The position numbers were made by a program, and so were the translations under genes. Below the pieces are notes generated by a model. The model was not told the origin of the DNA. It saw only the letters and a list, made by a program, of their open reading frames with translations, and ran no database searches. Shown one piece after another: positions 26,257 through 30,820 of a stretch of 64,000 nucleotides of DNA (positions are counted from its first letter, which is position 1; every line of letters starts with the position of its first letter). The DNA comes from Pyrinomonadaceae bacterium (GTDB lineage: Bacteria; Acidobacteriota; Blastocatellia; Pyrinomonadales; Pyrinomonadaceae). Location: positions 111,037-175,036 of the forward strand of contig JABARP010000010.1 in the NCBI GenBank assembly GCA_019186825.1, given 5' to 3'.

Positions 26257-27846
26257 ATGACGTCAAAGAGTTCAATGGCTATGACGGCGAAGGAGCTGAT
26301 ATCGACAAACCCCGCCACGGGCGAGGAACTCGGCCGTGTCCCCATCACATCTTCCGAAGATGTTGCGACGGCGGTTGCAAACGCACGCGAAGCATCGCGG
26401 ATGTGGGCTTTGACGCATTTTGAGGAACGAGCGCAGCTTGTGATGCATGCGCGCGAGATCATCCTGTCCGAAATGGATGAGATCGCAAAGTTGATATCCG
26501 CCGAAACGGGCAAGCCCGTGAGCGAGGCGATCTCGATGGAGATCGTGCCGGTGCTCGACCTGATGCAGTTCTTCGCACGCAAGGCGAAAAAGATCTTGCG
26601 TCCGCGTCGTGTCGGCATCGGGCTTTACAGTTTGCTTGGCCGACGCTCGAAGATCATCTATAAGCCGTGGGGCGTTGTCGGGATAATTCCCGCGTGGAAT
26701 TATCCGTTTTCGATACCGCTGGGCGAAGCGGCGATGGCGTTGATGGCGGGGAACACCGTTGTCATAAAGCCCGCCGAATCGACGTCGCTTACGGGCCTGA
26801 AGATCGGCGAGATCTTCGCCAAAGCGGCCTTTCCGGAAGACGTCGTGACCATTGTTACGGGTGCGGGCGAAACGGGTGCGGCCCTTGTCGCGGCGGCGCC
26901 GGACAAGATAATGTTCACGGGTTCGGTCGCAACCGGCAAAAAGATCGCCGAAGGATCCGCAAAGCACCTGACCTCGACGGTTCTTGAACTCGGCGGGAAA
27001 GATCCGATGGTCGTCTTCGCCGATGCGAATCTCGGGCTTGCCGCGAAGGCCGCGGTCTGGGGTGCGTTCTGCAACGCGGGGCAATCGTGCTCTTCGGTCG
27101 AGCGTCTATACGTCGAATCTTCCGCCGCCGAAAAGCTCACCAAACTGATCGTCTCGGAAACAAAACAGCTAAAACAGGGCATTGGTACCGATGACGACGT
27201 CTCTGTCGGCGCAATGTCCTCCGAGCGGCAGATAAGAATCGTTGAAGATCACGTCGAGGACTTTCGCCGAGCCGGTGCAAAGATCGAGACCGGCGGACGA
27301 CGAAACGCAGACGCGGGCGTCCGCGCTCCGTTATTCTACGAACCGACGGTGATCACGGGTGCGACCAACGAGATGCGCGGGATGCGCGAGGAAACGTTCG
27401 GGCCGACGCTGCCGATCGCGGTTTTTGAGACTGAAGAACAGGCGATCGAGCTTGCCAACGATAGCGAGTTCGGCCTGACGGCGAGCGTCTGGAGCGGTGA
27501 CCGAGCAAAGGCACGGCGTGTTGCCGCACACATTCACGCTGGTACGGTCACAATCAACGAAGTTCTCTATACGCACGGCATAGGGCAAACGCCTTGGGGC
27601 GGCTTTAAGAATTCGGGCCGCGGGCGAACGCACGGCATCGAGGGCCTTTTCGAGCTTGTCCAGCCGCAGCACATTCACGAGAACCTTCTGCCGCTCGCAC
27701 CCGATGCGTGGTGGATGCCGTATTCGAAGAACGCGGGACAGACCTTCCGCAAGTTCGCACACACCTTTGCCAGCGGTTCGGTCCTGAAAACGATCGCGTT
27801 GGTCCCGACGCTGTTAAAACGTATCAAAGAACTTATAAGAGAATGA
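26257..27846 (+). CDS. NAD(P)-dependent aldehyde dehydrogenase
   Basis: A 529-residue member of the ALDH superfamily that oxidises aldehydes to acids. The catalytic general base is Glu244 in VLELGGKDP and the nucleophile Cys278 in NAGQSCSSVE. Cofactor-binding PWGVVGIIPAWNYPF and the GSVATGK loop are present. An extra C-terminal stretch of about 40 residues ends in a hydrophobic/basic segment (SVLKTIALVPTLLKRIKELI) that could anchor to membranes, as in fatty aldehyde dehydrogenases. Substrate preference is not determinable. It abuts the small upstream gene, and the hairpin array follows it. Confidence 0.92.
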   Translation: MTSKSSMAMTAKELISTNPATGEELGRVPITSSEDVATAVANAREASRMWALTHFEERAQLVMHAREIILSEMDEIAKLISAETGKPVSEAISMEIVPVLDLMQFFARKAKKILRPRRVGIGLYSLLGRRSKIIYKPWGVVGIIPAWNYPFSIPLGEAAMALMAGNTVVIKPAESTSLTGLKIGEIFAKAAFPEDVVTIVTGAGETGAALVAAAPDKIMFTGSVATGKKIAEGSAKHLTSTVLELGGKDPMVVFADANLGLAAKAAVWGAFCNAGQSCSSVERLYVESSAAEKLTKLIVSETKQLKQGIGTDDDVSVGAMSSERQIRIVEDHVEDFRRAGAKIETGGRRNADAGVRAPLFYEPTVITGATNEMRGMREETFGPTLPIAVFETEEQAIELANDSEFGLTASVWSGDRAKARRVAAHIHAGTVTINEVLYTHGIGQTPWGGFKNSGRGRTHGIEGLFELVQPQHIHENLLPLAPDAWWMPYSKNAGQTFRKFAHTFASGSVLKTIALVPTLLKRIKELIRE

Positions 27847-27850
27847 CAGA

Positions 27851-28069
27851 GCCCGCGAAGTGGGCATAAGCGTGTAGCCCGGTGCGTGAGCAGCACCGGA
27901 AACAGATCGAACAAAGGTGTCTAAGCCCATACAATGGGCAATAGGTGATCTGGACGATCATTGTGTCAACGCTCACTGCTGTCGCCGTCTTCGACGGCTC
28001 GGCCGATGTTTTTCGTCTCTTTCCCATGCCTTACGGCATGGGCTATATGCTTATGCCGTCTTCGACGGC
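27851..28069. repeat. array of six short palindromic hairpins
   Basis: Six tight inverted repeats in 219 bp: 27851-27865 (GCCCGC/GTGGGC), 27879-27899 (CCGGTGC/GCACCGG), 27925-27939 (GCCCAT/ATGGGC), 27984-27998 (GCCGTC/GACGGC), 28023-28042 (CCCATGCC/GGCATGGG) and 28055-28069 (identical to the fourth). Loops are 3-7 nt. It lies between the ends of the convergent aldehyde dehydrogenase and DUF454 genes. Short open frames across it look non-coding. It resembles REP-like intergenic palindrome arrays. Confidence 0.85.
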
Positions 28070-28088
28070 TGACAGCGGCCTGGCGGAC

Positions 28089-28502
28089 CTAGGCGAGCTT
28101 GGGCGTATCCTGAATGGTTTCTGCCTCGGTTTCGGGCCGGTAGGTCTTCAACCAGAAGACGTGCGTCGTTACGCCGATGGCGACCGCGAGTAGCAGCAAC
28201 GTCACCCAAAATCTCGTTCCTATCATCCAAATGCTGAATCCGATCGACGCCCAGAGGACGACCGTTGTCGAGATCTTCTGCCGCATTGAGATGCCGCGGC
28301 CCGATTTGTAATTCGAGATGTATTTGCCGCAAAGGCGATTCGTGAGGAGCCAGGTATGGAACTTCTCGGAGCTTTTTGAGTAGCAGTACGCCGCAAGCAG
28401 CAGAAAGACCGTCGTCGGCATGAGCGGCAGGAACATTCCCAACACGCCGAGCGCTACGCAGACCGTGCCCAAGAAGATCAAAACTGCTTTGCGAACGTCC
28501 AT
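28089..28502 (-). CDS. DUF454 (YbaN) family inner-membrane protein
   Basis: A 137-residue membrane protein with about three or four hydrophobic helices. The family signature is FLPLMPTTVFLLLAAYCYSKSS, given here as residues 24-45, followed by FHTWLLTNRLCGKYI. The function of YbaN is unknown. It stands 60 bp from the exonuclease gene on the same strand. Confidence 0.9.
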   Translation of the reverse strand: MDVRKAVLIFLGTVCVALGVLGMFLPLMPTTVFLLLAAYCYSKSSEKFHTWLLTNRLCGKYISNYKSGRGISMRQKISTTVVLWASIGFSIWMIGTRFWVTLLLLAVAIGVTTHVFWLKTYRPETEAETIQDTPKLA

Positions 28503-28562: not shown

Positions 28563-29339
28563 TCAGATGATGAAGTCCGCGATAACAGGTGCATGATCGG
28601 ACGGATCTTGCCAGCCGCGCGGTTCACGGTCGACCCAGCAATCGGTGCAGTTTTCGGCAAGCGAGGGCGACGCCCAAATGTGGTCGATCCGCAGTCCGCG
28701 ATTCTTTGCGAACGAGCTCTCACGAAAGTTATCCCACCAGGTGAATTCGCCAGCCTCGTCGGTCATCTGCCGCAGGCAATCGACAAAGCCCCATTTCTTG
28801 AGCTCGAAGAGCGCGTCGCGTTCGATCTTTGTGAAGTGGATCTTGCCGTTCCAGAGCCGCGGGTTCCATACGTCGGTTTCGTGCGGGGCGATGTTCAGAT
28901 CGCCGCAGAGTACGACCGCGTCGCGGGTCGTGAAATTCTCGTCAAAATAGGTACGCAGACGCTTGATCCAGTCGAGCTTGAACGCGAATTTCTCCGAGCC
29001 GAGCTTTGTGCCGTGCGGTACGTAAACATTCACGACGCGAACGCCGCCCGCGGTCGCCGCAATGAGGCGACGCGGCGCGTCCGCACTCGCCTCCGGAAAA
29101 TTTCGCTCGACGTCGTCGAGCGGTGTTTTTGAAAGAATGGCGACGCCGTTGTAAGCCTTTTCACCGAAATGCTCGATGTATTCGAACCCCGCCACACGCA
29201 GCTTCTGCACTGGAAACTTCGCATCAACACATTTTGTCTCCTGCAGGCAAAGCACGTCCGGACGCACGGCGAGCGACCACTTGACGACGTGATCGAGCCG
29301 CGAGTTGATGCCGTTGATGTTCCACGTTGCGATCTTCAC
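28563..29339 (-). CDS. xth: exodeoxyribonuclease III (paralogue 1)
   Basis: A 258-residue AP endonuclease/3'-5' exonuclease of the ExoIII family in base excision repair. Catalytic signatures: MKIATWNINGINSR (metal-binding Asn), LCLQETK (Glu), VVNVYVPHG (Tyr), CGDLNIAP (Asp/Asn), LRIDHIWAS and the C-terminal SDHAPVIADF (Asp-His). It has a close relative 700 bp upstream at 30053, with a toxin-antitoxin pair between them. It starts 3 bp after the PIN-domain gene. Confidence 0.93.
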   Translation of the reverse strand: MKIATWNINGINSRLDHVVKWSLAVRPDVLCLQETKCVDAKFPVQKLRVAGFEYIEHFGEKAYNGVAILSKTPLDDVERNFPEASADAPRRLIAATAGGVRVVNVYVPHGTKLGSEKFAFKLDWIKRLRTYFDENFTTRDAVVLCGDLNIAPHETDVWNPRLWNGKIHFTKIERDALFELKKWGFVDCLRQMTDEAGEFTWWDNFRESSFAKNRGLRIDHIWASPSLAENCTDCWVDREPRGWQDPSDHAPVIADFII

Positions 29340-29342
29340 AGG

Positions 29343-29744
29343 TCATTCAGCAAACGCCGACAGCGGCACGGCAGTATCGCCGAATGCGGCCAGCAGTTTC
29401 TTGTCTGAGGTGATGAGCGGCACGTCCAGACTTTTTGCGAGAGCAACGAACTCACAATCATACCCCGTGCATCCCGAAGCATTGGCCAGCTCAAGCACAC
29501 GGCCGGTATCGACATTGTATTCGTTCCCGGCGATGGTCGTTTCAGCTCGGTGGAACAGGCGTTTTGCGTCGGCGACGCTCATTTCTCCGCGCCGCAGATA
29601 GAGCGAGAGCAAGTTTCGCATTTCGGATCGCCAGAGCATTGGAGCGGCCCATTCGGGGTCGAACAAAAGGACGCGTTCCGCAAAGACAGTTTGGGTGCCC
29701 GGGATCACAAGATATGCAATGACGTTCGTGTCGACGACGATCAC
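29343..29744 (-). CDS. PIN-domain ribonuclease, VapC/FitB-like toxin
   Basis: A 133-residue PIN protein. Acidic residues for two metal ions are in place: Asp5 (MIVVDTNVIAYL), Glu in WRSEMRNLL, and Asp in GYDCEFVALA and LITSDKKLL. Such toxins cut tRNA or rRNA when freed from the antitoxin. It overlaps the ribbon-helix-helix gene by 4 bp (ATGA), the usual type II order. It is placed between two exonuclease III genes. Confidence 0.9.
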   Translation of the reverse strand: MIVVDTNVIAYLVIPGTQTVFAERVLLFDPEWAAPMLWRSEMRNLLSLYLRRGEMSVADAKRLFHRAETTIAGNEYNVDTGRVLELANASGCTGYDCEFVALAKSLDVPLITSDKKLLAAFGDTAVPLSAFAE

Positions 29745-29986
29745 ACTCGGTGGCGTTTGCCTTCGGCAAGGAGCTTATCGGTAAGGTGAACTCCTTTTGC
29801 GGCGAGCTTATTGCGGTCCCTTCTGATCTGCGCAAGTAGGGCCGTTGCATCCAGCTCGCTTCGCTTCAGGCCTTGCTCCAACTGAACGATGGCCTCGCCG
29901 TTGATACTTCGACGGTTGCGCTTTGCCACCGCGCTCAACGCGGCGTAGATCTCATCGGGTAAATTTTTTATAGTTAGGGTCGCCAT
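29741..29986 (-). CDS. FitA-like ribbon-helix-helix antitoxin
   Basis: An 81-residue protein. The N-terminal MATLTIKNLPDEIYAALSAV and RNRRSINGEAIVQLE form the ribbon-helix-helix DNA-binding fold of FitA/Arc antitoxins. The C-terminal half should wrap the PIN toxin. It is encoded just upstream of and overlapping the toxin. Repeated half-sites upstream (29996-30038) suit autorepression by the complex. Confidence 0.9.
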   Translation of the reverse strand: MATLTIKNLPDEIYAALSAVAKRNRRSINGEAIVQLEQGLKRSELDATALLAQIRRDRNKLAAKGVHLTDKLLAEGKRHRV

Positions 29987-30052: not shown

Positions 30053-30820
30053 CTAGTTAAATTCTGCGATGACGGGAGCGTGGTCGCTCGGTTTATCGAG
30101 CGTTCGTGTTGAGCGGTCAATGCGGCAGGCAGCTGCGCGCGATGTCAGCTTTTGCGAGGTCCAGATATGGTCTATGCGGAGGCCGTGGTCGTGCTGAAAG
30201 GCTCCGGCGCGATAGTCCCACCAGGAGAATTCGCGTACATCACCATTCAGCTCGCGAAAGAGGTCTCGGAAACCCCATTGTTTGACGAACGTGATCGCGG
30301 CGCGTTCCGGTTTTGAGAAATGGATCTTGCCTTCCCAGGCTGCCGGGTTCCAAACGTCAGCGGGCTCGATCGCAACGTTAAAATCGCCGCAGAGCAGAAC
30401 ATCGTTTTCTTTCGAACATGTCGCGTCAAAAAAACGGCGGAGGCGCATGAGCCAGTCGAGCTTGAAAGCGTACTTGTCCGAGCCAAGCTCTGAGCCGTTC
30501 GGGATGTATGTGTTTACGATGCGGATGCCGTCTATGGTCGCGGCGATCAGTCGCTTTTGCGACTCGGCATCGTCGTCGGGAAGATTTAGCTGGACGTCCT
30601 CGATAGGCAGACGCGACAGGATCGCGACGCCGTTGTAAGATTTTTGGCCGGTAAAGGCAGAATCATAGCCGGCGGCTTTGAGTTCCAATTCGGGGAAGTT
30701 CGCATCGACGACCTTCGTTTCCTGCAGGCAAACGATGTCCGGCTTCGCAGCGTCGAGCCACGCAAGAAGCTGCGGCATACGCACGTTGATCGAGTTGACG
30801 TTCCAGGTTGCGATCTTCAT
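30053..30820 (-). CDS. xth: exodeoxyribonuclease III (paralogue 2)
   Basis: A 255-residue ExoIII-family enzyme with the same signatures as its neighbour: MKIATWNVNSINVR, VCLQETK, VVNTYIPNG-like IVNTYIPNG, CGDFNVAI, RIDHIWTS and the C-terminal SDHAPVIAEF. The two are clearly related but differ at many positions, so this is not a recent duplication. It lies 21 bp after nadA on the same strand and may be co-transcribed with it. Confidence 0.93.
   Translation of the reverse strand: MKIATWNVNSINVRMPQLLAWLDAAKPDIVCLQETKVVDANFPELELKAAGYDSAFTGQKSYNGVAILSRLPIEDVQLNLPDDDAESQKRLIAATIDGIRIVNTYIPNGSELGSDKYAFKLDWLMRLRRFFDATCSKENDVLLCGDFNVAIEPADVWNPAAWEGKIHFSKPERAAITFVKQWGFRDLFRELNGDVREFSWWDYRAGAFQHDHGLRIDHIWTSQKLTSRAAACRIDRSTRTLDKPSDHAPVIAEFN

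Follow-up and report, generated by a model that had tools for sequence, protein, structure and literature searches.

A six-hairpin intergenic array in a Pyrinomonadaceae genome, read as a gene-less mobile element with Acido-Lenti-1-like ends

Our analysis of a 64,000-nucleotide stretch of contig JABARP010000010.1 from a Pyrinomonadaceae bacterium (Acidobacteriota), here called the window, centers on an array of six short hairpins that fills 219 bp between two convergent gene ends (27851-28069). We propose, with a probability of roughly 0.87, that this array is a non-autonomous mobile DNA element akin to miniature inverted-repeat transposable elements (MITEs) and to REPINs, the hairpin-forming doublets of repetitive extragenic palindromes (REPs). 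It would comprise both ends of an IS200-like element, with the HUH transposase, TnpA, encoded elsewhere in the genome. Direct support comes from a shared architecture, the flanks of transposase genes, dispersal, insertion relative to congeners, and conserved catalytic residues. We also consider it likely that the Rfam family Acido-Lenti-1 (RF01687) is not primarily an RNA, and instead represents the end recognized by the transposase in a so far overlooked class of single-strand transposons that spans several phyla, in which a subclass 1.2 TnpA is framed by hairpin triplets and sheds six-hairpin, gene-less copies genome-wide.

Architecture of the array and its relation to Acido-Lenti-1

The 219-bp element forms a dyad, H2'-H1'-Hm' / Hm-H1-H2, without a transposase gene, and the same architecture recurs in relatives. 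Its minus-strand outer unit (27848-27902) consists of H1, a 13-nt linker and H2, with a GTAG foot beside H1. Here H2' (GCCCGC-gaa-GTGGGC, 27851-27865) contains one G.T pair, and H1' (27879-27899) pairs CCGGTGC with GCACCGG in a 7-bp stem around a 7-nt loop (8 bp and 4 nt in others). The inner hairpin on the same strand, Hm' (GCCCAT-aca-ATGGGC, 27925-27939), has an equivalent place in transposase-bearing copies. On the plus strand lie Hm (GCCGTC-ttc-GACGGC, 27984-27998), preceded by TGCTGTC, and the Acido-Lenti-1-like outer unit (28021-28072), composed of H1 (CCCATGCC-ttac-GGCATGGG, 28023-28042), the linker CTATATGCTTAT and H2 (28055-28069). An earlier note on this DNA had claimed six distinct hairpins; all six are there, but they are not all distinct, being three hairpin types of one element disposed around a dyad, and the Hm sequence recurs identically as H2 (27984-27998 and 28055-28069).

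Under a strict rule (arms of at least 6, loop of 3-8), five hairpins fall within the 219 nt, whereas 1,000 dinucleotide shuffles average 0.27 and reach 3 at most; the sixth has the G.T pair. In density of such hairpins the array has no equal among the 219-nt stretches of the window, and its folding z-scores are -5.0 as DNA and -5.5 as RNA. A repeat search confined to the window found no copies beyond the array itself. A covariance model, R1, built from six units of the same genome, assigns 68.3 bits to the plus-strand outer unit, which is a training member. It also recovers the minus-strand two-hairpin unit, on which it was not trained (33.9 bits, E = 1.3e-9), and gives a weak third match over Hm (27957-28001; 19.4 bits, E = 9e-5). 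The array is one element of two three-hairpin ends, not six unrelated hairpins.

The only significant Rfam match in the array is to RF01687 (28023-28070; 30.3 bits, E = 9.5e-5). The unit keeps the family's layout of two hairpins and a linker with a conserved CTA start, with all eight H1 pairs standard in all 26 aligned rows. Judged by its sequence, the H1-H2 part of the element is a divergent relative of RF01687. Both have an 8-bp stem with a 4-nt loop, a linker of about 12 nt starting with CTA and then a short hairpin, and the linker CTACATGCT of locus L110 is closely similar. The window copy differs in scoring below the family threshold and in a second stem of 6 bp instead of 5; moreover, Rfam files the family as an RNA of unknown role, whereas we would place it in the outer part of a transposable-element end.

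Pairing in H1 is strictly kept. In 26 diverse units, 208 of 208 cells are paired, and seven of the eight pairs show two-sided change, none one-sided. The H1 stems of 37 distinct RF01687 units (two units with an odd H1 skipped) hold 294 Watson-Crick and 2 G.T pairs among 296 pair cells. On the opposite strand, the four bases at the H1 foot of the same 37 units read GTAG (14), TTAG (11), ATAG (8), AAAG (3) or CTAG (1), that is, NTAG in 34; in copies from the home genome and three relatives (G013, G011 and G018), GTAG accounts for 16 and AAAG for 17 of 36. Selection on a DNA hairpin would account for the conservation pattern of H1, as would recent copying; the pattern is no proof against an RNA.

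Copies, insertion and dispersal

The element lies between an aldehyde dehydrogenase gene (26257-27846, plus strand, PF00171), whose stop codon is 4 nt before it, and a DUF454 gene (28089-28502, minus strand, PF04304), whose stop codon is 19 nt after it; the gene ends at 27846 and 28089 thus converge, as the earlier note had stated. Among 41 genomes of the genus (home genome included), 23 have a DUF454 orthologue; of these, 22 are congeners of the home genome, and 13 of the 22 have the aldehyde dehydrogenase gene at the 3' side. In nine of these 13 congeners the gap measures -4 to 31 nt and has no hairpins; in the other four, gaps of 156, 428, 777 and 1,225 nt hold other sequence. R1 units were found in none of the 13 congeneric gaps, only in the home gap, while locus L194 has one further R1 match on the far side of DUF454. 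Without the element, the home gap would be 4 + 19 nt, as short as in congeners. Since congeners keep the gene pair without the element, we conclude that it arrived by insertion.

In the home genome (3.2 Mb, 28 contigs), R1 yields at least nine matches (E <= 1e-3) at four or more loci, counted over the 150 of 364 candidates that were scored. A second six-hairpin, gene-less copy, with its hairpins in the same order as in the window, lies at C2:318030-318233, and an R1 match at C7:18700 marks a gene-less right half. R1 and a gene search together identify a Y1 transposase gene with units on both sides (C7:106272-106610): it occupies the center of the six-hairpin order, between a flank that holds Hm', H1' and H2' and an opposite flank that holds Hm, H1 and H2. 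The array shares both ends with this TnpA-bearing copy and lacks its gene, as a MITE does. A DNA search of the home genome with the whole array returns little, namely itself and one 29-nt match, because the spacers are not conserved. The matches listed from an RF01687 search of that genome include C2:318184 and not the window copy.

Dispersal is far more extensive in relatives. R1 matches occur in 32 of 40 related genomes (home genome included), reaching 72 in G013 and at least 126 in G036. Twelve G013 copies, picked as minus/plus pairs, align as six-hairpin dimers; their stems and a GACAGCAT-type linker are kept, as is the length of the spacers, but not the spacer sequence. All six stems are perfect (at least 5 bp) in seven of the 12, and four or five in the others. 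IS200-type elements are not expected to leave target-site duplications, and none was obvious by eye in this alignment, to which no formal test was applied. By rough open reading frame (ORF) calls, 22 copies lie between convergent (4), tandem (8) or divergent genes (4) or overlap an ORF (6), and show no preference for gene 3' ends. Beside one six-hairpin copy in G011 (contig C9), at L237:556-760, a 21-nt unit, GGGTTGAGCACTCTGCCCGCT, is repeated in tandem about ten times.

These results bear on the proposal of the earlier note that the hairpins belong to a REP-like repeated family, which it would have abandoned had the units occurred nowhere else in this genome or in related ones. Copies exist in both, which supports a repeated family, yet one whose unit is a single six-hairpin, MITE- or REPIN-like element of low copy number here. 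The search it suggested, for hairpin units and a Y1 gene, turned up the further copies and five Y1 transposase genes; the copies are intergenic but not specially placed at gene 3' ends.

The transposase and its association with the repeat

Of the five Y1 genes, one is flanked on both sides by the window-type repeat. Each of the other four (L007, L008, L009 and L010, on C10, C2, C16 and C4) has its own, different hairpin family in its flanks, and several such element families thus seem to coexist in the home genome.

The TnpA at locus L006 carries the motif YIRNQARHH and not the Y---NP of class 2 REP-associated tyrosine transposases (RAYTs); it matches the NCBIfam model transpos_IS200 above cut-off and does not match REP_Tyr_transpos. 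A phmmer alignment of TnpA to the ISHp608 transposase (PDB 2a6m; E = 5e-8) spans the HxH and Y---Q motifs, and HUH and the catalytic Y/Q are invariant columns of the TnpA alignment. Two sets of loci were compared. The first comprised 34 TnpA loci, five from the home genome and the 29 best-scoring from other genomes, chosen by Pfam score and not by hairpins. The second comprised 80 named loci from a contig search with an alignment of 12 transposases, which reached Planctomycetota, Verrucomicrobiota, Acidobacteriota, Bacteroidota and others, and which leans towards the RF01687 clade because one query member, L078, had already been seen to carry RF01687. The signature Y---Q--HH is present at 74 of the 80 and 28 of the 34 loci; the remaining six of the 34 encode, by reading, IS200-type or Y---NP proteins. 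The earlier note had suggested a RAYT-type transposase. A Y1 gene flanked by the repeat does exist, but by its motif, matched to classes in published text, the cognate enzyme appears to be an IS200-like TnpA of subclass 1.2 and not a canonical RAYT.

In the text available to us, TnpA_Y1 subclass 1.2 (Y---Q--HH) is described as without insertion sequence properties and generally without terminal structures (Quentin 2018, PMC6006769). The proteins considered here share with that description the motif, a short length of about 150 residues and few gene copies per genome; they differ in occurring also in Acidobacteriota, Planctomycetota and Verrucomicrobiota, and in having flanking hairpin triplets with copies scattered through the genome. 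Class 3 of the same scheme, as presented there, also occurs in Planctomycetes and Acidobacteria with REP-like dispersed structures (about 600 in Solibacter), but has a Y----Q spacing and a CnGA foot rather than Y---Q--HH and an NTAG foot. Compared to IS200/IS605 elements and their MITE derivatives, with the ISHp608 TnpA as example, a HUH-Y transposase (by sequence), hairpin ends and gene-less derivatives are common features, whereas here there are more hairpins per end, few gene copies and many gene-less ones.

Repeats and transposase genes are closely associated. At a threshold of 22.4 bits, 26 R1 units occur at 13 of the 34 TnpA loci (104 kb; L006, partly a source of R1 training, supplies four of the 26), compared to two in control stretches that total 400 kb and come from 20 genomes in the related set. 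No transposase that could account for the L095 matches was found in the control stretches, and these matches therefore look like dispersed copies. An Rfam scan of the 80 named loci at gathering thresholds gave 45 RF01687 matches at 24 loci and two matches to families other than RF01687. None of the 45 is more than 500 nt away from TnpA, although this near zone covers 76.6 kb against 357.7 kb farther off (434 kb in all). The binomial p of 1e-34 for this placement is too small, because matches within one locus are not independent; counted by locus, the placement holds at 24 of 24. The mirror orientation around TnpA is seen in 35 of the 45 matches. The 24 loci belong to Planctomycetota (14), Verrucomicrobiota (5), Acidobacteriota (2), a deltaproteobacterium (Myxococcota; 1) and Bacteroidota (1), with one unplaced. 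Hairpins of at least 7 bp number 3.1 per kb beside the TnpA gene and 0.58 per kb far from it, and the strict Hm-H1-H2 pattern is found in 41 of 156 readable flanks of the named loci and 17 of 66 flanks of the home and related loci, compared to two of 2,482 control windows.

The association also holds between genomes. In an even sample of 149 Acidobacteriota genomes, 32 have RF01687 (E 1e-5) and 33 have the transposase (E 1e-20); 24 genomes have both, eight only RF01687, nine only TnpA and 108 neither (Fisher p = 7e-14). The home genome scored RF01687-negative under these strict filters. The eight RF01687-only genomes are G224 (36 copies), G162, G141, G203, G116, G151, G153 and G216, in which a Y---Q--HH TnpA may have been lost or left unassembled, or another mobilizer may act. 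All 24 genomes reached via loci with RF01687 beside TnpA hold between two and 85 copies, and 13 of the 25 reached via loci without it also hold copies, possibly from other TnpA copies. Mapped on the TnpA tree, RF01687-type ends need four changes, compared to 10.9 in shuffles, a result compatible with one origin of such ends and with several. In Flavobacterium sp. J49, a match to another Rfam family, Flavo-1 (RF01705), lies 252 nt from a TnpA gene (L180:3897-3956). As a second TnpA-linked case it was set aside: Flavo-1 is dispersed, with 38 to 74 matches in three Flavobacterium genomes, and absent from the other scanned TnpA loci of that genus, so chance is the likely cause.

Based on what is known for the ISHp608 TnpA, we propose the following model. 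Each end is a hairpin triplet, Hm-H1-linker-H2, the two ends being inverted with respect to each other. TnpA may recognize the hairpins in single-stranded DNA during replication and cut beside them, near the foot, and it could act in trans to move gene-less copies in single-stranded form. What Rfam files as the RNA Acido-Lenti-1 would correspond to the outer, H1-H2 part of such ends, and any effects on transcription would be possible side effects.

Alternatives, reservations and neighboring features

Several observations weigh against the mobile-element model. No transposition has been observed. The window unit, at 30.3 bits, falls under the RF01687 gathering score of 37, and just four loci came to light in the home genome among the 150 of 364 candidates scored. 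For the second home copy (C2:318030), a unit stands at the gene end in none of 29 relatives (36 genomes with the gene; 30 loci compared, home locus included), a comparison that shows absence only, because the relatives' downstream sequence differs and is not syntenic. As many as 115 of the 156 flanks fail the strict triple-hairpin pattern, and Bacteroidota relatives carry other hairpins; the pattern, found in a minority of flanks, is therefore typical of part of the subclass and not of all of it. Matches within one locus and in related genomes are not independent. Finally, eight of the 32 RF01687-positive genomes have no such TnpA at E 1e-20, and one of these holds 36 copies.

Could the array be a structured non-coding RNA, as the Rfam entry would have it, with a role in trans or at the 3' ends of mRNAs? 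Rfam lists RF01687 as a gene for a small RNA, the array matches it at E = 9.5e-5, and H1 covaries strongly. Yet a single element carries the units on both strands, TnpA has them on both sides, no promoter-like site was found in the array, and congeners lack the unit at the equivalent gene pair. An RNA helix is expected to hold more G.T pairs than two in 296, and covariation is expected equally if TnpA needs a DNA hairpin. We regard this explanation as unlikely. A proximity to group II introns has been noted for Acido-Lenti-1. In the text available, the family is named once in the main text of Weinberg 2010 (PMC2864571), counted among non-coding RNAs in a 2023 paper, and described in a 2026 paper as little known in function, with a proposed regulatory role near proteases that would favor an RNA. 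In the accessible parts of the literature on Acido-Lenti-1 and RF01687, a coverage outside which subscription papers and preprints fall, we found no link to a transposase, nor did a literature search that combined Rfam, RAYT and REP elements list one, and the link described here appears to be new.

What would follow if Acido-Lenti-1 marks transposon ends? The annotated Acido-Lenti-1 'ncRNAs' would be transposon remnants, and surveys in which these copies are interpreted as regulatory RNAs close to virulence or other genes would have to be revised. An Rfam 'RNA' family without an assigned role since 2010 would gain a function, and a transposase subclass reported without mobile-element ends would gain them. 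A direct test becomes possible with one small protein and one hairpin oligonucleotide.

Still less likely is a canonical REP or bacterial interspersed mosaic element of the kind that goes with class 2 RAYTs, such as those of E. coli or Pseudomonas. REPIN dimers were reportedly described by Bertels and Rainey in 2011. The palindromes, their inverted dimers and the flanking Y1 transposase speak for such an element, as does the GTAG foot carried by 14 of the 37 distinct RF01687 units. So far as the accessible text shows, the GTAG REPs and REPtrons described in Di Nocera 2013 (PMC3733652), like REPIN dimers, resemble the present elements in inverted dimers, variable spacers of kept length, a frequent NTAG foot and a transposase flanked by the repeat, but are built from single hairpins with Y---NP RAYTs instead of three hairpins per end. 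Two features of the REP/REPtron definition are present, a repeat flanking a Y1 HUH transposase in inverted orientation and dispersal in many intergenic copies (up to 126 R1 matches in relatives, at least four loci at home); a GTAG or GTGG foot at the stem is seen in part of the units, as GTAG; and a RAYT class 2 transposase is absent, the cognate TnpA having Y---Q--HH in place of Y---NP and L006 matching transpos_IS200 and not REP_Tyr_transpos.

Least likely is a bidirectional terminator, suggested by strong hairpins between two convergent gene ends, since the array contains no stem followed by a T-run (the sole terminator-like match, at chance level, lies in the DUF454 gene), nine of 13 congeners with the gene pair manage without it and other copies also lie between tandem and divergent genes, although a secondary terminator effect could exist. 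A mobile element remains our preferred explanation of the array.

Two further observations concern the surroundings. An 82-codon ORF with a GTG start (27945-28193, plus strand) crosses one half of the array and might be mistaken for a small protein in annotation. Beyond DUF454, two adjacent exonuclease III-like genes on the minus strand (28563-29339, PF03372, and 30053-30820) form a clear tandem duplication, with 70% identity over 183 nt and a spacing of 1,484, and between them, at 29343-29986 on the same strand, lie overlapping small genes that by eye resemble a PIN-domain toxin and a FitA/VapB-type antitoxin.
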